Shown in pieces: positions 3,129 to 22,555 of a stretch of 23,032 nucleotides of DNA. The notes beneath the pieces are model-generated. The model had not been told where the DNA came from, searched no databases, and saw nothing but the letters and a program-made list of their open reading frames with translations. Position numbers and translations under genes: made by a program. The DNA comes from a virus: the IMG/VR virus record IMGVR_UViG_3300032053_000552, positions 1 to 23,032 of that record; one strand, written 5' to 3'. Numbering within the stretch: the stretch's first letter is position 1; each line of letters starts with the position of its first letter.

Positions 3129-5798
3129 GTGGCAACACAATACGGTATCACCACCACCGGCTTTGTCGTTAAGCAGCAAGCGGTCATCAAAGACGAGACC
3201 CAAATAGCGTTGCAAGGCGCCCTTGGTTTCAATATCAACCTGCTCCCCGAGGCGGTTTTCGGCCAGCTCGTGGGCGTGTTCTCTGAGCGGGAGGCGCTAC
3301 TGTGGCAGCTTGCGGAGGCGGTTTACACGTCGCAATATCCGTCCGGCGCCGAAGGCGCCTCGGTGGACAATATCCTGGCGCTGAACAATCTTCGGCGTCT
3401 CCCCGCCCGCGCCACCGCCACGGCGCCCACGAGCACCGTAGGGACGCCCGGCTTGGTGCTCAAGGGCACCCCCGGGACGGTGATTCTGGCTGGCGCCATT
3501 ATTTCCGTGAGTGGTAACACCTCGCTACAGTTTACGCTGGACGAGGACGTAACGATTCTACCCGCTGTAAACGCGGTGCAGCTCGTCTCCCTCTTCGGGG
3601 GCTCCCCGTCACAGGGTGCCTTTACGCTCCAAATCGTAGACCCGGCCGGGAACGCGCTCACCACCCCCACGATTCAGTGGAACGCCACGGCTACCACCAC
3701 TTTGATTTCCTGGGCTACCACCCCCTCGTCCGGCGCCTTTGTGCTGGGTATCGGCGGCTTGCTCACCGCGTCCCTGGCCTCTAACGCCAGCGCCGCAGCG
3801 GTCCAGACAGCCATTCAGGCGCTCGCCGGCTACGGCGCCGTGACGGTGACCGGCAGCATTGCGGCCGGGCTCGTCATCAATTGGGGCGCCGTCTCCCAGC
3901 CGGTGGTCACCATGAACGCCACTAAGGTGGCGTTTAGCGCGGACCCGACAGGTAGCACCTTTCAGATTTCTCTCAATGGCACCAACGCCGCAGCGGTGGC
4001 CTATAACGCCAGCGCGGCCACCCTCCAGGCGGCGCTCAGGGTCATCGCCGGCTATGAGTATGTAGTGGTGACCGGCGCCGCGACACTCGCCAGCGGGTTC
4101 TTTATCAATTGGGGGTGGGCCACCCCCGCCACCGTGGCGATTGTCGCCAACCCAAGCGGCGCCACGCTGTCCGTGGTCCAGACCAATACACTTAACCACC
4201 CGGTGACGCTGCTTAACTCGATTCAAGCGGCGGTCAATACCCTTTACGACAAATTCACCGGGTTCTATCCCTATACGGATGTGGTGGTGGGCGGCTCGCT
4301 GGCCGCCGCGCTGCTCACCGTCACCTTTGGGTCCGGGACGGTGGTGGCGGGTCAACCGGTGAGCGCCGCACAGCCGCAGGCGCTTTTTACCGCGCCCACC
4401 AATACGCTCCAAAACGGCACCGTGGTCATCAATTTGAACGCGTCCACGTCGGCAGTGGGTGCGCCCGCCGAGGGCGTCGGTTCGGCCACCGCGACGGTCA
4501 CCGGGCCGAACTATGTCCCGGCCGGGTTCCTGTCGGTCATCGGCTCCCCGCAAGCCGGGTGGACGTCGGTGACCAACCCGCTGGACTGTATCACCGGCGC
4601 CCTCGTGGAGACGGACCAGCAAGCGCTGACGCGGCGTTCTACGCTGCTCGCGGCGGCGGCTAACGGGCCGCTGCAAGCTATCGCGGAAAAGGTGGGCAAG
4701 GTCACCAACGTGGTCCAGGCTATCGGCTTTGAAAACGTCTCACTGGCCGCTGACCAAACGGTGTCTTTTGCTCCGGTGCCCACCGCCGGCTCTTTCACCA
4801 TGACCTTTATCGGCCCGTCCGGGGCGCCGCTGACCACCGCCGCGATTCTTTGGAACGCGTTGGCTAACATTCAGGTGGTGACCTTTAGTGCCGTGCCGCC
4901 GTCTGGGACGTTCACGCTGACTTTCGGCGCCTACACCACCGGGGCTATCGCCTATAACACTACGGCGTCCGGGGTCCAGGCGGCGGTCCGGCTACTTCCG
5001 GGCTATGAAACGACTATCGTCACCGGGTCCTTTACCCTCGGATTCAATATCGCGGTGGGGCACCACCCCCACCTCCCGGTGAGCGCGACTAACAGCCTGG
5101 GCGGCGGCGTCACTATCGCCACTATCCCGTCCGTCCAGTCCCGTATCAATGAGCTGACCCCGTATTACCTGGCCACGGTCATCGGCAGTTTCGGCGCCGG
5201 ATTTCAGGTGGCCTTTAACGGCTCGGCGGGTAGTCAGCCGCAAACGCTTATCACCACCGTTAACGGACTGACCACCACCCTGACGATTACCACCACCTTT
5301 GGCCGGCCGGGTAAATCGTTTGAAATCATCGTAAACGATAACAACGGCCAAGCCGATGACGCGGCTATAGCCCAGGCTATCTTTGACGCCAAGCCGGCGG
5401 GCATTCAGTCTTACGGCAACGTCACCGTGATTATCACGGACAGCTTTGGCAATCCCCACTCCATTTCATTCTCGCGGCCGGCACAGGTCACTATCTACAT
5501 GGTGGTCACGCTGACCACCGACCTGACCACGGCAGCGGCGCCGAGTTTCAACCCCGCCTCTATCATTACGATTCAAGAGGAATTGGTGGCAATCGGGGAC
5601 GCGTTCCTCATTGGCGGAACCATTATCGGGTTCGGCTCCGGTGGTCTGATTGGTGCCTTTAACAACGTGCCGGGTATCAATACTTACACGCTGTCTTTCG
5701 GCACGGCGCCCAACCCCACCGGCAACACCAATATCCAATTGCTCCCGGAACAGGTGGCTGATTTTCAGACATTCAATATTATCGTCAGCTACACTTAA
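3129..5798 (+). CDS. baseplate J-like (gp47-type) wedge protein with repeat insertions
   Basis: The product (889 residues, GTG start at 3129) is the main wedge protein. It is over twice the usual 350-450 residues of J-like proteins. The N-terminus is typical: 'YGITTTGFVVK' and then 'YPSGAEGASVDNILALNNLR' near 70-90, which matches the J family 'P..A.G..LD.LA.L.GI.R' motif. J-type sequence also returns at 485-530 ('ETDQQALTRRSTLL', 'GPLQAIAEKVGKVTNV') and at the C-terminus. Between these lie inserted beta-sandwich-type repeats. One copy set lies at about 3612-4110 and a second at about 4786-5040, each opening with 'F.......G..LTT..I.WNA' and followed by 'SG.F.L.....T..IAYN..A..VQAA...L.GY...VTG'. 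This motif recurs in large surface proteins. The insertions probably extend outward and may bind host surfaces or stabilise fibres. Confidence 0.85.
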   Translation: MATQYGITTTGFVVKQQAVIKDETQIALQGALGFNINLLPEAVFGQLVGVFSEREALLWQLAEAVYTSQYPSGAEGASVDNILALNNLRRLPARATATAPTSTVGTPGLVLKGTPGTVILAGAIISVSGNTSLQFTLDEDVTILPAVNAVQLVSLFGGSPSQGAFTLQIVDPAGNALTTPTIQWNATATTTLISWATTPSSGAFVLGIGGLLTASLASNASAAAVQTAIQALAGYGAVTVTGSIAAGLVINWGAVSQPVVTMNATKVAFSADPTGSTFQISLNGTNAAAVAYNASAATLQAALRVIAGYEYVVVTGAATLASGFFINWGWATPATVAIVANPSGATLSVVQTNTLNHPVTLLNSIQAAVNTLYDKFTGFYPYTDVVVGGSLAAALLTVTFGSGTVVAGQPVSAAQPQALFTAPTNTLQNGTVVINLNASTSAVGAPAEGVGSATATVTGPNYVPAGFLSVIGSPQAGWTSVTNPLDCITGALVETDQQALTRRSTLLAAAANGPLQAIAEKVGKVTNVVQAIGFENVSLAADQTVSFAPVPTAGSFTMTFIGPSGAPLTTAAILWNALANIQVVTFSAVPPSGTFTLTFGAYTTGAIAYNTTASGVQAAVRLLPGYETTIVTGSFTLGFNIAVGHHPHLPVSATNSLGGGVTIATIPSVQSRINELTPYYLATVIGSFGAGFQVAFNGSAGSQPQTLITTVNGLTTTLTITTTFGRPGKSFEIIVNDNNGQADDAAIAQAIFDAKPAGIQSYGNVTVIITDSFGNPHSISFSRPAQVTIYMVVTLTTDLTTAAAPSFNPASIITIQEELVAIGDAFLIGGTIIGFGSGGLIGAFNNVPGINTYTLSFGTAPNPTGNTNIQLLPEQVADFQTFNIIVSYT

Positions 5799-5812
5799 GC
5801 GAGGGCCGCCGC

Positions 5813-6502
5813 GTGTTAGCCACCAGGATTAATGACCACGTCAGCGCCGCGCTTGAGCGGTTTATGCAGCAATATGAAGACGTGGCCCTGACCTATACGC
5901 TGACCCTCCATGACGGGTCAACGTTGGCGGTTTCGGCTATCGGCGCCATTCTCGCCACGCAGGTGGACGAGGCACAAGAGCTAGAGGACGCTATCTACGC
6001 GCTGGACCATGGGCGCCAGTTTTTCGATGGCGTCACGTTCCCCGCCAGCGGTGCCCAGCTTGACGGCATTGGCGAGCTGGTGGGTATCGCCCGCAACGGG
6101 CTTACCGACGCTGAATATCTGATTTTCATTCTCGGCACCATTGCCGAGAACAATTCGGATACCACCGTGGCGGCTATCGTCAATATTGCAAGCCTACTAT
6201 TTCAAGTGACGGTGGGTCTACTCGCCTACGAAATGCCGCCCGCTGAGTTTAACCTACAGTTCCCGGACACCACGCCGTTGCAGGCTTACCTATGGCCGGT
6301 AGCTGCCAATATCATACATAACGCGCTCGGTGCGGGAATCAGCCTCGGGTTCATTTCGCTTTACCCGGCGGCCACCCCCACCAGTCCGTTCCGCTTTTCG
6401 TCCGTCAGCACGCCGTCACCTGGTGGCGGCTTTAGCAGCATAGCCCAACCAACGGTGGGCGGCGGCTTTGCCCGAAATATTTACCACAGCGTGGGAGTGT
6501 AA
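5813..6502 (+). CDS. DUF2612-like tail protein
   Basis: A 229-residue protein directly after the J-like wedge. This is where gpI/DUF2612 proteins that link baseplate to fibre are found. The N-terminal half is helical and acidic ('ILATQVDEAQELEDAIYALD'), followed by 'GAQLDGIGELVGIARNGLTD', 'AEYLIFILGTIAENNSDTTV' and 'AAIVNIASLLF'. The 'A.G.QLD.IG..VG..R.G..D..Y...I...I..N.S..T....I' run is the diagnostic DUF2612 pattern. The C-terminus is Gly/Ser/Pro-rich with 'FRFSSVSTPSPGGGF' and 'GGGFARNIY'. Start GTG at 5813, after a GCGAGG ribosome site and 14 bases past the J stop. Family function is not proven; a structural adaptor role is inferred. Confidence 0.75.
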   Translation: MLATRINDHVSAALERFMQQYEDVALTYTLTLHDGSTLAVSAIGAILATQVDEAQELEDAIYALDHGRQFFDGVTFPASGAQLDGIGELVGIARNGLTDAEYLIFILGTIAENNSDTTVAAIVNIASLLFQVTVGLLAYEMPPAEFNLQFPDTTPLQAYLWPVAANIIHNALGAGISLGFISLYPAATPTSPFRFSSVSTPSPGGGFSSIAQPTVGGGFARNIYHSVGV

Positions 6503-10329: not shown

Positions 10330-10370
10330 GCGCGTGCTAGGCTGGAGTTTTCGCCAGTTAGTACCGTGGT

Positions 10371-10406
10371 GCCGGCCGCCCCTTACAGGGTGGCCGGTTC
10401 TTTTTT
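10371..10406 (+). terminator. intrinsic terminator after lysis cassette
   Basis: CCGGCCGCCC (from 10372) and GGGTGGCCGG (10388-10397) form a GC-rich stem with one G-T wobble around a short loop. A run of T follows at 10401-10406. It lies 42 bases after the holin stop. Confidence 0.85.
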
Positions 10407-10424
10407 GCCTGCTCGGCGGCGTTC

Positions 10425-10464
10425 GACGGTGGGGGCGCTAGGCTTCACCGTCCGCGCCCCCACC
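10425..10464 (+). promoter_or_regulatory. two mutually exclusive hairpins
   Basis: A perfect 11-bp inverted repeat GGTGGGGGCGC (10428-10438) / GCGCCCCCACC (10454-10464) has a 15-base loop. The alternative 7-bp pair GACGGTG (10425-10431) / CACCGTC (10446-10452) uses part of the same 5' arm, so only one can form at a time. No T run follows either. Such exclusive pairing is typical of attenuator- or switch-type RNA, but no known class is recognised and chance in GC-rich DNA is possible. Confidence 0.4.
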
Positions 10465-10593
10465 TGAGAAACAGCCTACCCGCCCTGAGCAGACGTCACC
10501 GCCTCCAGCATACCGAAAAAGAACACGCGGCGCTCAGGTTCGGCCCGGAGCTGCCGACAGGCTACTTACCATTGTAGTTACTCCCACGGTTTG

Positions 10594-10640
10594 GGCGCCC
10601 CGTCTGCCGGTAACACGGCCAGGCGGGGCGCCGTCTTTTT
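10594..10640 (+). terminator. long hairpin with T run (intrinsic terminator)
   Basis: GGCGCCCCGTCTG (10594-10606) pairs with CAGGCGGGGCGCC (10620-10632) through 13 bp including one wobble. The stem continues inward as CCG/CGG around a 6-base loop. GTCTTTTT follows (T run 10636-10640). Very stable, in a region with no gene directly upstream. Confidence 0.8.
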
Positions 10641-10718
10641 GCGTCCACCCAGGACGGGCTCCCACGGTCCCGGCTCCCAGGTCACGGAATAGGTGCCACG
10701 CGCTCAGAATCCAACGCT

Positions 10719-10754
10719 GGCGGCCGGCTCTCCAGAGCTGGGGCGCCTCTTTTT
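10719..10754 (+). terminator. third hairpin with T run
   Basis: The core GCTC-TCCA-GAGC (10727-10738) is extended by a few pairs (CCG/TGG) and an imperfect outer GGCG/CGCC arm. A CTCTTTTT run ends at 10754. Weaker than the two upstream, but the same architecture. Confidence 0.55.
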
Positions 10755-10833
10755 GACGTGTAAAGGGTTGGTCACCGTCTGCCGCCTTGACGAATTGGCA
10801 ACCGTCTGAAGTAGGGCAGCTTTACCCCGTTAT

Positions 10834-10859
10834 AGCGCTAACCTATTGATAGGGGCGCT
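10834..10859. promoter_or_regulatory. palindrome upstream of early promoter (possible operator)
   Basis: CCTAT-TG-ATAGG (10842-10853) is a perfect 12-bp palindrome except for the central TG. It is flanked by the outer arms AGCGC (10834-10838) and GCGCT (10855-10859). It lies about 50 bases before the TTGACA box and is not followed by T residues, so a protein-binding operator is more likely than a terminator. The ribbon-helix-helix protein encoded downstream could be the ligand; this is inference. Confidence 0.35.
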
Positions 10860-10906
10860 CAATCCTTAGCCGGTCCAGAAATCCCAAGCCCCTAATACCG
10901 CAGGAC

Positions 10907-10938
10907 TTGACAGTGGCACTCCGCCTGCAATATCTAAT
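10907..10938 (+). promoter_or_regulatory. sigma70-type promoter for early plus-strand genes
   Basis: A perfect TTGACA lies at 10907-10912. About 18-20 bases later is TATCTAAT (10931-10938), giving either TATCTA (18-base spacing) or TCTAAT (5 of 6 matches, 20-base spacing). It sits 40 bases before the first start codon of the block (10979), whose GGAG site is at 10966-10969. The -10 box is not ideal, so strength is uncertain. Confidence 0.5.
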
Positions 10939-10978
10939 GCGTCCCCGATAACGTCACTACAAAACGGAGCCCGTCCAA

Positions 10979-11098
10979 ATGCCTGACCCCTGCGACCTGT
11001 GCAAGCGCCCGGCTACCGGTAAATACGAAACGCTCCACACCTGTGACCGCTGCCATAAGGTCATGGCGCGGCGCAAAGAGAAAACGGAGACGAAATGA
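10979..11098 (+). CDS. small zinc-ribbon protein (39 aa)
   Basis: A 39-codon frame beginning nine bases after a GGAG ribosome site. The product MPDPCDLCKRPATGKYETLH continues with TCDRCHKVMARRKEK and a basic end. Four cysteines in two CxxC pairs (C5/C8 and C22/C25) form a treble-clef or zinc-ribbon knuckle. The stop overlaps the ATG of the next gene (ATGA). Size, four Cys and a basic tail suggest binding to nucleic acid or to host polymerase; this is inferred. Tiny zinc proteins of this kind are frequent in phage early regions. Confidence 0.7.
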   Translation: MPDPCDLCKRPATGKYETLHTCDRCHKVMARRKEKTETK

Positions 11099-11610: not shown

Positions 11611-11891
11611 ATGGAAGGCAAGTTTGTAATCGTTCGGACGTATTCAGCCGGTGTCCATTGTGGCGTTTTGTCGTCGCTGAAAGACAAAGCCGCCGTACTC
11701 ACCGACGCCAGGCGCATTTGGCGTTGGCGCGGCGCTAACTCTCTGCATGAGGTTGCCTTGCACGGAGCCGCCGAAGACTACACCCGGATCAGTGAGCCGG
11801 TGCCGGAGATCCTTCTTACGGAAGCGGTCGAAGTAATTCCGTGCGTGGCGACGGCGCAGGAGAATCTGACCCGTAGTCGGTGGGGTACGTG

Positions 11892-11892
<1 letters not shown>
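11611..11892 (+). CDS. DUF6948 family protein
   Basis: A 93-residue protein with a perfect AGGAGG ribosome site at 11600-11605. The sequence 'KFVIVRTYSAGVHCGVLSSL' (4-23), 'VLTDARRIWRWRGANSLHEV' (30-49), 'ALHGAAEDYTRIS' and 'EILLTEAVEVIPCVATAQEN' fits the DUF6948 pattern: 'Y.IVR...AGVH.G.L', '.V.L...RR.WRW..A..L.E.A..G', 'I.LTDA.EIIPCT..A'. These small proteins occur widely in phages and prophages, with unknown function. The stop overlaps the ATG of the first glycine-rich gene by one base. The last codons (TGGGGTACGTGA) equal the end of the glycine-rich genes, which suggests a shared duplication junction. Confidence 0.75.
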
Positions 11893-12721
<829 letters not shown>

Positions 12722-17169: not shown

Positions 17170-19206
17170 CTATTTCCGGTAACGGGTTGCTTGGTAGCTG
17201 TCCACTTTAACGGGGAGCCCAGCGGCCCACGACGGCAGCTCTTTCATAAGTCCCTCAAATTCTGCAAGCGTCCCGTAGCTGGCGTCCGCCTCCGCTACAA
17301 TCTCATCGTGGACGGTTAAAATAACGTCATAGCCACCGTGGGCGTCAATCCGGAGCATGGCGGCGGCCATCAAATCCCGGGCGGTGGCTTGGGTCACGTT
17401 GGCCGTCAGCTTGCCGCCGTAGGTGGCGCTCCGCTCCCACTGGCGGGTGACCGGGTTGGTTTCGTAGTGGTATATAACGGGACGCTTTTCCTCCCCGCCC
17501 CAACGCGGGATTTCATACCTAACTTCGGGGTCCGCGTAGGCGAGACGCCGTCCGCTCGGGAGCTGGCAGAATAGAAAACGGCGCTCCAGCCACCAGGTGG
17601 TGCGGTTAATGGCGTAGCGTTTCCCCCGGTTTTCAATGGCCGCAATGGCGGCCCGCTGGAGGTTGGCCCAAAGCTGCACCACCGGGTAATGATGGGACCG
17701 GTATGCTTTAATCGCCAGCTCAGCGGTGTTCTCGTCCATATCAATGCCCTGTTTGACCTGGCAATGCTCCCGGAATTTTTTGGCACCTAGCTGGAAACCG
17801 GCGCCCAAAACCGCCGCTTTGCCAACCTGCCGCTGTTCCTTGGTGACGTCGTCCCGGTTTTTACCGTAGATGACCGCCGCCATATCTTCATAGATAGGCT
17901 CACCCATGGCAAGGGACTGGAGCCCGTCCAGGTGTTTCGCTAACCAAAAGAGGACGCGCACCTCAATGGTGGAGTAGTCACCGCTATAGAGCTGGCGGCC
18001 CTTAGGTGCGACAATGACGCCACGGAGGCACGAGGCAAAGGCGCTGAGCGGGTTCCCGTAGATGAAGCGCACCAGCTCCAAATCCCCAAGCGCGATAATG
18101 GAGGCGAGCTGGGCGCTGTCCTTGACGTCACCACGGGGGAAATTGTGGGGCTGGACCCCGGCGCCACCCCACCGCCCTGTGGACGCGCCGTGGTAGAGCA
18201 GGTTATCCCGCAGCCGCCCGTCGTAGCGGCTCCGGTGCTCAAAAGCCTCGTATTTCGCGGTGGACGTCTTACCGATGGCTTGGCGGATTTCGAGCATACG
18301 CCGGGCGTCTCCGTCCACCACGCCGGCCGCCAGCGCGTCCGCCACCGTTTTGGCTTGCAGGTTCGGGAGAAAGACGCGCTCCGCCGCCAGCCACTCCAGC
18401 ACGCCGTCCCGTTGGGTGGTGGAGACCAGCATACCCAGCGTCATTTCGTCCGTCTCTTTATTGAGCTGACGCGTTTCCTCGTCAATCATATCGAGGACGG
18501 TAATGGCCAGCTTGCGGTCCACCTGGAACCCGCGCAAATTAATCCGCTGGTCCAGCTCCCAAACCTTGCGCTCGGTGGGGTGGAGCGGCGGCAGCGCCAA
18601 AAATAGGTCGGTCTCCACCTCCACGTCTTTTTTACAGTATTCCATGAGCCGCTGAATCTGTGGCGGGCTCTCGTGCCATTTGTCCGTGTTCTTTTTCGTC
18701 GCCTTGCGCGGCTTGCACATTTGCAGTAGTAGCTTGCGGCCCTCCATATCCTTTTGGACGGGGAGCCCCGCCGCCTTGGCGGCGCCCTCCAGCGCCCGGG
18801 GGAGCGCCAACGCCGCCGCCAGTGACGCGGTGCAGAGCCACCGCGACGGTGACGCGGTGGCCGCCTCCAGCAAACGGTGGTCACCGAGCAGACGCCGAGC
18901 CACCACAAATTTAGTGATAACCTGCTCAAATAGGGCGTTATGGGCGCAAAGAATTACACTGGTGTCCAGTAGCGTGGTGATAAAGGTACGCCACATGAGG
19001 TTATCAAAATCGTGGACGAGCGGAGACCAACACCGAATCGGCGCGGTCTTTAGCGTCTCACGGGTGCCTATCCTATACGCTACGCAAATCAGCTCCGTGG
19101 ATTTGTCGGCGGCGTATTCAAACGAGCCGGTACGCTTGAGATTCGCACAGCTTCGGGTCTCAAAGTCTATAACAGCGTACACCGTGTCTTTGGTAAACGT
19201 CGTCAC
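17170..19206 (-). CDS. family A DNA polymerase with 3'-5' exonuclease domain
   Basis: A 678-residue phage DNA polymerase. The N-terminus has an exonuclease domain: D14-F-E16 (AVIDFETRS), 'CAHNALFEQVI' around 95 (Exo II-like, usual Asp replaced by Glu as in many phage homologues) and Y190-C-K-K-D194 (Exo III). Polymerase motifs: A 'SGDYSTIEVRVLF' with D410 and E415; B 'RQVGKAAVLGAGFQLG' with K463; C 'VHDEIVAE' with H633, D634 and E635. No 5'-3' exonuclease domain. It copies the phage genome in concert with the ssDNA-binding and nuclease genes upstream. Start GTG at 19206 overlaps the previous stop by four bases; no ATG is in a better position. No frameshift seen. Confidence 0.95.
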   Translation of the reverse strand: MTTFTKDTVYAVIDFETRSCANLKRTGSFEYAADKSTELICVAYRIGTRETLKTAPIRCWSPLVHDFDNLMWRTFITTLLDTSVILCAHNALFEQVITKFVVARRLLGDHRLLEAATASPSRWLCTASLAAALALPRALEGAAKAAGLPVQKDMEGRKLLLQMCKPRKATKKNTDKWHESPPQIQRLMEYCKKDVEVETDLFLALPPLHPTERKVWELDQRINLRGFQVDRKLAITVLDMIDEETRQLNKETDEMTLGMLVSTTQRDGVLEWLAAERVFLPNLQAKTVADALAAGVVDGDARRMLEIRQAIGKTSTAKYEAFEHRSRYDGRLRDNLLYHGASTGRWGGAGVQPHNFPRGDVKDSAQLASIIALGDLELVRFIYGNPLSAFASCLRGVIVAPKGRQLYSGDYSTIEVRVLFWLAKHLDGLQSLAMGEPIYEDMAAVIYGKNRDDVTKEQRQVGKAAVLGAGFQLGAKKFREHCQVKQGIDMDENTAELAIKAYRSHHYPVVQLWANLQRAAIAAIENRGKRYAINRTTWWLERRFLFCQLPSGRRLAYADPEVRYEIPRWGGEEKRPVIYHYETNPVTRQWERSATYGGKLTANVTQATARDLMAAAMLRIDAHGGYDVILTVHDEIVAEADASYGTLAEFEGLMKELPSWAAGLPVKVDSYQATRYRK

Positions 19207-19406
19207 CCTTTACCTCGCTGGTGCCAGAGTGGTGCAAGGCAGACGGTCCAGAGCTGGCTCGGAATTTTCCATTTGCAGAACGCCACCTGGGCGCCGCCGA
19301 TAGCCGCGAGACCCAGGAACAGCCCGAGCATGATTAAAGTGAGCTGGCCGCCCTGGCTCTTGACGCGGGGAACGCGGATTTTGGCCACCGTCTTAAAGTG
19401 TTTCAA
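19203..19406 (-). CDS. small single-TM protein (67 aa)
   Basis: I place the start at TTG 19406, which overlaps the upstream TGA (TTGA); a longer frame upstream is part of the broken receiver gene. The product has a basic N-terminus (LKHFKTVAKIRVPRVKSQGG), one TM segment at about 22-42 ('QLTLIMLGLFLGLAAIGGAQ'), and a short tail with Cys/Trp ('CKWKIPSQLWTVCLAPLWHQ'). The stop overlaps the GTG of the polymerase. Position suggests a membrane-associated accessory of the replication genes, but the family is not recognised. Confidence 0.55.
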   Translation of the reverse strand: MKHFKTVAKIRVPRVKSQGGQLTLIMLGLFLGLAAIGGAQVAFCKWKIPSQLWTVCLAPLWHQRGKG

Positions 19407-19735
19407 TGTAGCGCCGCCCGGACCGACGCCGCCAGCTCGGACATTCCTAAGGGCTTGGTGATATAGATATTGCACCCGAATTTCAACGCCTCGTCCCGGT
19501 GGGCCCTTTCGGAGCAAGCCGGCCAGGGCCAAGCCGTCCAGGTCTGGCAAGCCCGATATCCACTAACACTATATCGTAGTGGCGTATTTGGACGTGGTGG
19601 AGAGACCGTCCATGGCTGTCTCCACGCAATCGACCGAGGCGCCGGCCATGCTTTGTCCGTGTGGGCGCTGTAGGCGGCAATCCGTCCGGTATAACCGCTC
19701 GCCAGGATAGTGCGGCCGGTCAGCTCCCGTCTCAT
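19403..19735 (-). pseudogene. response-regulator receiver domain split over three frames
   Basis: The open frame from ATG 19735 to TGA 19403 (110 codons) starts as 'MRRELTGRTILASGYTGRIA' and ends in 'GCNIYITKPLGMSELAASVR' then AALH. That end is the last strand and helix of a CheY-like receiver, with the conserved Lys. Between these, receiver sequence is seen only in other frames: 'GASVDCVETAMDGL' (about 19650-19606), 'YDIVLVDIGL' (about 19583-19551) with the phospho-acceptor-type Asp, and 'PDLDGLALAGLLRKG' (about 19550-19504). At least four single-base shifts, net zero, would be needed to join them. Start and stop overlap both neighbours perfectly. Either a decayed or compensated gene or local sequencing indels. 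The usual acidic pair after strand 1 is absent. Confidence 0.6.
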
Positions 19736-20088
19736 TGCCGCGCCCCGGGTGGCGGCGGGAAAATGTCATTTTTGGCCACGGTGATTCTCTGGCTAAAAAA
19801 CCCTGCCATGTAGTCCTGGGTGAAATGCTCCATGACCCGCTCTTTCCACCGCTCGGCGTCACGGCCACGGATTTCGGCCGAGCCCAGCGCTAGGCAAAGC
19901 TGGTCAAGGTATTCCTCGGTGGTAAAGGGCTCCACCCCGGTGCGCTGGGCATACACCTGGTAGTGGCTCCAGTAGTTCAAGGCTTTCTTAAAGGCGGGGG
20001 TGACGAAATCGGGACATACGTAAAACGGTAACGCCACGGTGTCGATAGACACCCGGCCGGTGACCGCGTCTACGTTAACTCTTTGCAT
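19732..20088 (-). CDS. hypothetical protein (118 aa)
   Basis: A 118-residue protein whose start (ATG 20088) overlaps the previous gene by 19 bases and whose stop overlaps the following ATG. The N-terminus has a beta-type segment 'NVDAVTGRVSIDTVALPFYV' and the rest appears helical: 'PAFKKALNYWSHYQVYAQRT', 'EEYLDQLCLALGSAEIRGRD', 'AERWKERVMEHFTQDYMAGF'. It ends with a Pro-rich tail 'DIFPPPPGARQ'. No metal motif, signal peptide or TM. It is in the replication operon, so a DNA-metabolism accessory role is possible, but the family is not recognised. Confidence 0.65.
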   Translation of the reverse strand: MQRVNVDAVTGRVSIDTVALPFYVCPDFVTPAFKKALNYWSHYQVYAQRTGVEPFTTEEYLDQLCLALGSAEIRGRDAERWKERVMEHFTQDYMAGFFSQRITVAKNDIFPPPPGARQ

Positions 20089-20312
20089 GGGGATTTGCCT
20101 CGGAAATGGTGTTTACGGCGGGTCTCGTCACCAAGGCAACCGCAGGACTTGGTGGTGCCGTTCTTTAAGCTGATAGGGTGTGACGTGGTGACCAGCCCGC
20201 AGGTGCAGCGGCAGCGCCACCGGATAGTGTTATCAATACGGCTACGGGTCATTTCAAGGACGGTCAGGCGGCCAAACGTCTGACCCACCAGGTTGGCAAT
20301 ACGCGGGTTCAT
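20070..20312 (-). CDS. zinc-finger protein of the AP2/HNH-associated type (80 aa)
   Basis: An 80-residue protein from ATG 20312 (GAGG site upstream). 'LVGQTFGRLTVLEMTR' and 'WRCRCTCG', then 'SLKNGTTKSCGCL', form a familiar pattern: 'G..FGRLTV', then 'W.C.C.CG', a beta hairpin, and 'SCGCL'. It is the N-terminal zinc module of many phage AP2- or HNH-type homing endonucleases and also occurs alone as here. C34, C36, C57 and C59 (approximate) would bind zinc. The catalytic HNH part is absent, so it is a stand-alone DNA-binding module or a remnant. Basic C-terminus (RRKHHFRGKS). Confidence 0.7.
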   Translation of the reverse strand: MNPRIANLVGQTFGRLTVLEMTRSRIDNTIRWRCRCTCGLVTTSHPISLKNGTTKSCGCLGDETRRKHHFRGKSPCKELT

Positions 20313-20448: not shown

Positions 20449-21063
20449 TCACATTCCTAAGCCGTCGTCCTCTTCCATGCCGGTGCCGTCCATGCCGCCC
20501 AGCCCGTCATCGTCACCGCTGTCCACGGCGTCAAACTCGTCCGACGCCTTGCGGCGCCCGCTGAATGATTTGCCGTCACGGATTTTCTGGACGTTTTGCA
20601 GCGAGAACGAAACGCCCTTATTCCCCTTTTGGTCGTAGGCGAATGCAATCAGCGTGGCGCGGGCGTAGCACCCGGGGTAAAATTCCGCCTCGCTGATAAT
20701 TTCCTCCACCGCTTTGTTGACGAGCCCCGGCTGCTGCTTGGACGTGGCGCTAACAAAGGTGGTGTCTTTGTAGCCCTCCATATCGGCTTTCTCGTTTCCG
20801 TCGCGGAACGGCAGGCGGAGGTTTTTCGGCCATTTGTCCTTGGTGCCCCACTTTTCCACCGCCGCGTTAAAGGCGGCCCGTTTCAGCTCTTTCAGGTCGG
20901 TGGTCTTAGGGAAAAGCATGGTAAGACCAAACTTCGCCTCTTGACCCTCGAAAGCCTTGGGCTTGAACATGGACGGAAAGCTGACGCGAAATTCTGGCGT
21001 CATGCAACGTTTAGTGGCAATGGCGCTGTCTTTGGTCTTACCTGCGGGAGCTGTAGCTGTCAT
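20449..21063 (-). CDS. DUF2815 ssDNA-binding-type protein
   Basis: A 204-residue protein. It has 'TPEFRVSFPSMFKPKAFEGQ', 'AKFGLTMLFPKTTDLKELKR' and 'KNLRLPFRDGNEK', then 'EAEFYPGCYARATLIAFAYD' and 'KGVSFSLQNVQKIRDGKSF'. This is the DUF2815 layout ('F.A....G...KY...LLF', 'P.RDG', 'YPG...RA....Y......KGV...L..VQ...DG..F'). Family members are thought to be phage ssDNA-binding proteins with an OB-like fold. The end is strongly acidic ('DEFDAVDSGDDDGLGGMDGT', then GMEEDDGLGM), like SSB tails that recruit replication partners. ATG 21063 follows GGAG. It lies with nuclease and polymerase genes, as usual. Confidence 0.85.
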   Translation of the reverse strand: MTATAPAGKTKDSAIATKRCMTPEFRVSFPSMFKPKAFEGQEAKFGLTMLFPKTTDLKELKRAAFNAAVEKWGTKDKWPKNLRLPFRDGNEKADMEGYKDTTFVSATSKQQPGLVNKAVEEIISEAEFYPGCYARATLIAFAYDQKGNKGVSFSLQNVQKIRDGKSFSGRRKASDEFDAVDSGDDDGLGGMDGTGMEEDDGLGM

Positions 21064-21220: not shown

Positions 21221-22555
21221 TCACCGCTTGCGAGCCTTAGCCTTTACTTTGGCTTTTGCTTTCTCCTTAGCGGCACGTTTCGGGGCGGCAGTAGCTTTAG
21301 ACCTAGCATTGGCGACGATTTTTGGCAAAGGCTTTACCTTCATTTCAGTGGCCACCACGTCGATGACGTCAGGAATCGCCACCGTCGCGGGGTCCGCGAA
21401 ATCCCGCCTGAGCTGGTCCACGGCCGGGCGCTTATCGCTTTCCGGAACCATGGTGGTTCCGGTGCTCTGACGGTCCGTGTAAAGCGTCACCCAATCCTTA
21501 CATTTGAATTTCTTTTCGAGCTGGGCCGGGCTCAGTAGCTCGGGCTCGGTGTAGACGTCCTGCCCGTAAAGCTTGATAGCGTCCCGCTCGGCTTTGGCCG
21601 GGTCTTTCCAGGTCCGCCGGGCCAGCTTCGCCACCAGCTTGAAACCCTCCACCTGGTGGCCGCTTTCGAGCTGGTGGATAGCGTGGAGGCGCACCCCCTC
21701 AATCCACGTCTCTAGCAGGTCGCAGGCGGTGAGCACATGCCCGAGGTTTTTGAGCGCTCCCGGCGCGGGCAGAGCGGGGAGCGCGACGACGGCGCCGCCT
21801 TTCAGCATATCAATAGGCGCAAATTCCACTTGGGCTTGCTTGAGCGCCAAATCGCCAACGCTCGGGCAGATAGGCTTGGCCGGGCAAAAGCGGCACCACT
21901 TGCCGGGGTTGAGTGGCGCCAGCAAATCCTCGCAGGCGGCCACCCCGTCCTTAAAGGTTTTGGTCCAGGCCACCAGCTCGTCCATGGTGATAACCCACTC
22001 GCGGGTGGTGTTCCCACTAAAGTGTTCGGCGCGAGGCTGAATGACCACCATGGAAACGCGGCTGAAATTGTAATCGTATTTGTGCGCCACCCCGAGCGCG
22101 TAATACGCAAGCTGGCTGTTATCATCTACCTCTACGGCAATCCCGGCGCCGTATTTCAGGTCAAAGACTTGGAGCAAGCCGAAGTCCTCGACAATGACTG
22201 CATCGGCGGTGCCGAACATGCCCGGTGCCACAAAGGATAGATCACACTTGGTCTCCGCCAGTAGCTCCGCGCCGGGCGGCACCCGGTCCCAAATCGTCTC
22301 GGCCGCCGCCAGCGTGTGCTGCACCATTTCAATCGGGTTGGACGCGAGCAGCATAGCCTTTACCTGGGCTTTTTTCTCGGGTGGGTTCTTTAGGAATTGC
22401 TCCAGGCAAGAGTGGGCTTGTGTTCCCTCCAGCGCGTAGACGCTATCCTTTTGCGGCGGGGCGCGAAAGGATAGCTCAATGGAGCCCGCACAGCGGAGCC
22501 AACGTTCTGAGCCGGACGCGCTGTAGACGGCGTGGGCAGTAGTATCCGTGGTCAT
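21221..22555 (-). CDS. DUF2800 PD-(D/E)XK nuclease with Cas4-like Cys set
   Basis: A 444-residue protein. Nuclease residues include E43-GTQAH48 (EGTxxH...E52), D118 (GTADAVIV), D132-x-K134 (VFDLKYG) and Q148 with YY at 151-152 (QLAYYAL), the PD-(D/E)XK layout of Cas4/RecB-like DUF2800 proteins. C22 (RWLRCAGS), and C222, C225 and C231 ('KWCRFCPAKPICPS') match the four-Cys set that holds an iron-sulphur cluster in this clade. Probably a phage recombination/replication nuclease processing DNA ends. The C-terminal 90 residues are Lys/Ala-rich and likely a flexible basic tail ('KAAKEKAKAKVKAKARKR'-like). ATG 22555 is 36 bases after the upstream gene. Confidence 0.85.
   Translation of the reverse strand: MTTDTTAHAVYSASGSERWLRCAGSIELSFRAPPQKDSVYALEGTQAHSCLEQFLKNPPEKKAQVKAMLLASNPIEMVQHTLAAAETIWDRVPPGAELLAETKCDLSFVAPGMFGTADAVIVEDFGLLQVFDLKYGAGIAVEVDDNSQLAYYALGVAHKYDYNFSRVSMVVIQPRAEHFSGNTTREWVITMDELVAWTKTFKDGVAACEDLLAPLNPGKWCRFCPAKPICPSVGDLALKQAQVEFAPIDMLKGGAVVALPALPAPGALKNLGHVLTACDLLETWIEGVRLHAIHQLESGHQVEGFKLVAKLARRTWKDPAKAERDAIKLYGQDVYTEPELLSPAQLEKKFKCKDWVTLYTDRQSTGTTMVPESDKRPAVDQLRRDFADPATVAIPDVIDVVATEMKVKPLPKIVANARSKATAAPKRAAKEKAKAKVKAKARKR

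Follow-up and report, generated by a model that had tools for sequence, protein, structure and literature searches.

Gene Organization of the Locus

The IMG/VR record IMGVR_UViG_3300032053_000552 is a complete virus record of 23,032 bases, the contig of an uncultured virus, and its whole length is referred to below as the window. Its minus strand harbors an operon composed of an exonuclease, a single-strand binding protein (ssb), small genes, and a family A DNA polymerase. The exonuclease (phrog_69, 444 aa, positions 21221–22555), the Gp2.5-like single-strand binding/annealing protein (20449–21063), and the polymerase (678 aa, 17170–19206) are all intact. The same holds for a 118-aa gene (19732–20088), which has no family match and lies directly upstream of the gene considered here.

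The window combines this replication module with contractile-tail type genes (baseplate hub, wedge). Its polymerase is closest to those of phages such as Janthinobacterium phage Donnerlittchen and Stenotrophomonas phage DLP4, both of which are filed under Mesyanzhinovviridae. On the plus strand, 11880–12721 has the appearance of a glycine-rich repeat gene that is tandemly repeated and whose units vary: two to three successive open reading frames open with a near-identical KNDG(R/S)GNANG and continue into long Gly-Asn/Asp/Tyr/Ser stretches, and a degenerate unit of 6 bases (consensus CGGGTA, 11927–12676), present in about 123 copies, encodes the Gly-rich stretches. Also on the plus strand, some 700 bases nearly devoid of open frames (10330–11090) separate the lysis genes from a series of small genes; by eye, they contain GC-rich inverted stretches followed by T runs.

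The gene under study occupies positions 19735–19403 of the minus strand and consists of five receiver-type coding stretches in the successive frames 1, 0, 2, 0, and 1. Piece A/C (19649–19735, frame 1, MRRELTGRTILASGYTGRIAAYSAHTDKA) carries the start codon and contains TGRIAAYSAHTDKA, which fits strand 4 of a receiver but lies upstream of strand 2. Piece B1 (19581–19649, frame 0, MAGASVDCVETAMDGLSTTSKYA) covers the end of helix 1, strand 2, and helix 2, and is followed by piece B2 (19549–19578, frame 2, YDIVLVDIGL), which harbors strand 3 with the phospho-acceptor aspartate. Piece B3 (19503–19547, frame 0, PDLDGLALAGLLRKG) supplies the post-Asp loop and helix 3, and piece D (19406–19501, frame 1, HRDEALKFGCNIYITKPLGMSELAASVRAALH) supplies helix 4, strand 5 with its Lys-Pro, and helix 5. 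The four frame changes are of one base each, two in each direction, such that they sum to zero, and at least three of them sit in or beside short homopolymers. Repeats at the breakpoints amount to just two short direct pairs within the block, and no inverted repeats were found at the breakpoints of the receiver gene.

When frame 1 is read from ATG to TGA (19735–19403, minus strand), it is open over 110 codons (110 aa). The ATG overlaps the stop of the upstream 118-aa gene (ATGA), and the TGA overlaps the TTG of a small downstream gene (TTGA). The first-pass annotation had described ordered minus-strand fragments in different frames, joined by four one-base shifts of net zero, within a stop-free 110-residue frame coupled to its neighbors at both ends, and all of these elements are present. 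The small downstream gene (19203–19406, minus strand) has this coupled TTG as its only start and ends at the polymerase start. It encodes one hydrophobic segment and has no family match, and its usage is coding-like (13 bits over its length). The GTG start of the polymerase is preceded by a GAGG of its own that resembles a ribosome-binding site, and this gene need not depend on coupling.

Homology to Classical Receivers

Frame picking by eye can always look good; therefore, the choice of frames was repeated mechanically, by frameshift-tolerant local alignment with automatic frame choice against a profile made from receivers of bacterial genomes. The receiver gene scores 44.7, while the runner-up site in the window scores 17.2, and the highest score on either strand of 2.46 Mb of other phage DNA is 25.5. 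The score is far above chance, and the gene is homologous by descent to the receiver family PF00072 once frame changes are allowed. The earlier identification of a CheY-like receiver homologue is, in this respect, borne out. Against Pfam Response_reg, whose cut-off is 30.2 bits, the joined pieces score 34, whereas the open 110-codon frame alone stays below the cut-off at 12.4 bits; a PF00072 family search of the record gives no match, no single reading frame passing the cut-off. The original frames had been chosen by eye, which leaves room for the likeness to be a chance artifact of that selection. However, automatic choice on the control DNA yields nothing close, and codon usage agrees with the chosen frames, such that an artifact of this kind deserves practically no credence; chance homology was ruled out by the control.

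Compared with PF00072 receivers of known structure (PleD, PmrA, KdpE, and CovR/VicR-like proteins in the PDB), the gene matches strands 2 and 3, the phospho-acceptor aspartate (VDIGLPDLDG), helices 3 and 4, strand 5 with Lys-Pro, and helix 5. The aspartate at the end of strand 3 is present in YDIVLVDIGL followed by PDLDG, split over two frames, and the conserved lysine at the end of strand 5 is found in NIYITKPL in frame 1. In contrast to these receivers, the gene lacks the acidic pair, the first strand and helix, and an in-place strand 4, and its pieces lie in three frames. The Asp-Asp or Glu-Asp pair that follows strand 1 was sought in the N-terminal piece and is absent; the first strand and first helix were not found in the joined pieces; and strand 4 with its Thr/Ser is absent from its place between helix 3 and helix 4, i.e., between KGP and HRDEALK, even with the frames joined. 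The pieces match the classical PF00072, and the family search reports no other family for them.

Codon Usage and the 110-Residue Open Frame

Codon usage was learned from the intact genes of the window and holds no receiver information. It independently prefers the frames 1, 0, 2, 0, and 1 over the five pieces, which are free of internal stops and have a mean of 0.18 bits per codon; the intact genes range from 0.06 to 0.47. Taken together, homology and codon usage identify the pieces as parts of a once-continuous coding sequence in the phage's own usage. When codon usage was scanned for frame switches in other places, noise made the result unusable: many shifts were called in antisense stretches, and one doubtful switch, at 20247, fell within a gene whose family match is unbroken.

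The middle of the 110-codon open frame (19648–19502) is off the receiver's frame and anti-coding in usage. Its 49 codons average −0.61 bits per codon, outside the range of the intact genes (+0.06 to +0.47). The corresponding part of the product is rich in Trp, Pro, and Arg and has no family match. An AlphaFold2 prediction of the 110-residue product from the single sequence gives a mean pLDDT of 33; this is weak evidence by itself, as no alignment was used, yet it agrees with the codon usage. The 110-residue protein with a scrambled middle that was originally predicted is probably not real: such a product is unlikely to be made, and a functional protein would not be expected.

The absence of stops between the coupled start and the coupled stop is a point in favor of a real new small protein, for which compensating frameshifts would have overprinted the middle of the old receiver. 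A further point is that an out-of-frame stretch of 50 codons is open in only about 14% of places in intact genes, and a net-zero sum adds a factor of about 1/3; with these values, chance is a moderate explanation of the net-zero open frame. Since the middle resembles no intact gene in its usage, and its composition, family search, and predicted structure all point the same way, a new protein is improbable. Programmed ribosomal frameshifting could in principle join the pieces into one protein, each being coding-like in its own frame. Within 330 bases, however, the ribosome would have to shift four separate times, in both directions, and the product would still be without the acidic pair and without strand 4 in place. 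This mechanism is considered highly improbable and was dropped as uneconomical.

The N-Terminal Piece and a Probable Displaced Strand 4

The N-terminal piece does not behave as a normal first strand and helix, and this assignment was rejected: its 29 residues score 44.2 in place, no better than shuffles (mean 45.5), of which 1965 of 2000 equal or exceed the real score. The expectation that restoring one frame would yield a normal receiver fails on this result and on the absence of the Asp-Asp pair and of strand 4.

A different position suits part of this piece better. The Pfam score, 34.8 bits for the joined pieces, climbs to 55.0 bits once TGRIAAYSAHTDKA is placed between KGP and HRDEALK, while fourteen X residues in the same gap give 37.4 bits and three shuffles of the segment give 40.7 to 41.9 bits. 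With a broad local profile, this 14-mer ranks first among the gene's 244 windows for the strand-4 slot; 100 of the 30289 stop-free 14-mers of the window and 5 of 3000 shuffles are as good. An earlier local profile, which was biased by its search pattern, gave weaker support (218 of 30289), and the broader one was used thereafter. When the whole 29-residue piece is considered with a free cut point, the real score is attained by 11 of 1500 natural 29-mers from phages and by 2 of 500 shuffles. Under the most permissive null, in which any sub-window of a 29-mer may serve as the moved strand 4, 11 of 163 do so (p about 0.07). In addition, the piece that bears the segment shares frame 1 with piece D, which should come after strand 4. 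At a level of about 1%, these comparisons make it probable, although not proven, that the strand-4 block was moved ahead of the block spanning strand 2 to helix 3. A strand-4-like stretch upstream of the block that it should follow implies that frame errors alone would be insufficient to explain the gene.

Relatives and Related Phage Domains

An alignment search of IMG/VR with the polymerase gave 80 loci at 31–51% identity. The exonuclease and ssb are widely conserved upstream of the polymerase among these loci, and none of the 80 fetched neighborhoods has a receiver near the polymerase. The gap between ssb and polymerase contains different small genes in each of the five relatives inspected in detail. 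The receiver is therefore regarded as lineage-specific cargo. In another observation, the polymerase gene of one relative (L060) seems to be split (4316–6037 onward): an N-terminal portion of 114 aa ends at 4660 and is followed by four unrelated small open reading frames, one of them methyltransferase-like by eye; from 6001 on, similarity to the polymerase picks up again at about residue 102, a possible insertion or intron-like interruption.

Single-sequence scans of IMG/VR with the 118-aa neighbor, the polymerase, the exonuclease, and the receiver gave no usable close relative; the 118-aa neighbor had one weak 16-residue match. An alignment of the receiver against IMG/VR returned four remote receivers (29–31% identity), and tblastn of phage records with the receiver returned weak, generic receivers only. 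Bacterial genomes likewise contain generic receivers at 30–47% identity, and the donor was not found among them.

The best phage family for the joined pieces is PHROG family 731 (E 2.5e-10, profile positions 24–117 of 227), which comprises phage proteins with a receiver-like N-terminal region and is without functional annotation. Its profile is 227 positions long, whereas the gene described here is only a broken single domain. The cRec domains of jumbo phages are likewise receiver-related (PMC7824862, PMC9503650). Their reported gene partners are NAD+/ADP-ribose or RNA-repair genes, and kinases are never among them (PMC7824862, PMC9503650); in contrast, the present gene adjoins replication genes. 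The first-pass annotation had called a phage receiver in a replication operon unusual. This applies to the position beside ssb and polymerase, which is shared by none of the 80 relatives, but not to the receiver itself, as phage receivers are known from PHROG 731.

Proposed Origin of the Gene Fragments

Our favored reading, to which we assign an even chance, is that a tailed phage carries, as cargo specific to its lineage, a recently inactivated receiver gene of the classical (CheY) type between its ssb and polymerase genes. The ancestor, judged from its fold family only, would probably have been a single-domain receiver that obtained its phosphoryl group from a host kinase. Small insertions and deletions would then have broken the gene, and a local rearrangement probably both eliminated the first strand and helix and placed the strand-4 segment in front of the block from strand 2 to helix 3. 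The homology, the frame changes, and the codon usage are observed, and we infer that the inactivation was recent. With no acidic pair, a misplaced strand 4, and three frames, the locus is predicted to be incapable of making a working receiver. A broken gene of this kind would not be expected to yield a protein that takes phosphate from a histidine kinase or histidine phosphotransfer protein. The remaining open frame would at most hand ribosomes on to the small downstream gene. Such passage may be why a net-zero, stop-free frame has survived, and selection may possibly have kept it open, as this would avoid a block to translation ahead of the small gene that is coupled to it.

It is less probable, though still a serious alternative, that the virus has an intact receiver gene and that this stretch of the uncultured virus contig is wrong: a local consensus of low quality, or strain variants joined into a chimera, would have produced the indels and the displaced block. 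Each of the pieces is clean coding sequence that follows the codon usage of the phage itself. Substitutions appear to be almost lacking, and none is clear, whereas decay under neutrality should produce them more often than indels. The changes are of one base and mostly beside short homopolymers, which are the usual site of long-read errors; this placement and the scarcity of substitutions count against real inactivation. However, the neighboring genes, which start within a few bases, are unbroken. Family searches also find the tail (889 and 799 aa), baseplate, and endolysin genes elsewhere in the window unbroken, and the damage is therefore local. Four indels in a 333-base gene, with none recognized in the other major genes, are unlike a uniform error rate, and neither the displaced block nor the missing first strand is a base-calling error. 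Real recent inactivation is favored because only one gene of the operon is damaged and because base calling does not displace a block. A single complex event such as template switching, which would have reordered the blocks and scattered compensating shifts while selection for coupling kept a ribosome-passing frame as the sole function, is quite improbable.

Biological Implications

Most likely, the stretch represents either a commonplace cargo gene that has been broken or an error of local assembly, rather than a new kind of protein. Its rearrangement is mildly curious. Gene callers will report here a 110-residue "hypothetical protein" whose middle has no coding signature. If the inactivation is real, a phage lineage gained a host-type signaling receiver in its replication operon and has only just lost it, and the frame coupled to the neighboring genes stayed open after the loss. 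Rather than a new system, the locus represents a small example of cargo turnover between the ssb and polymerase genes.
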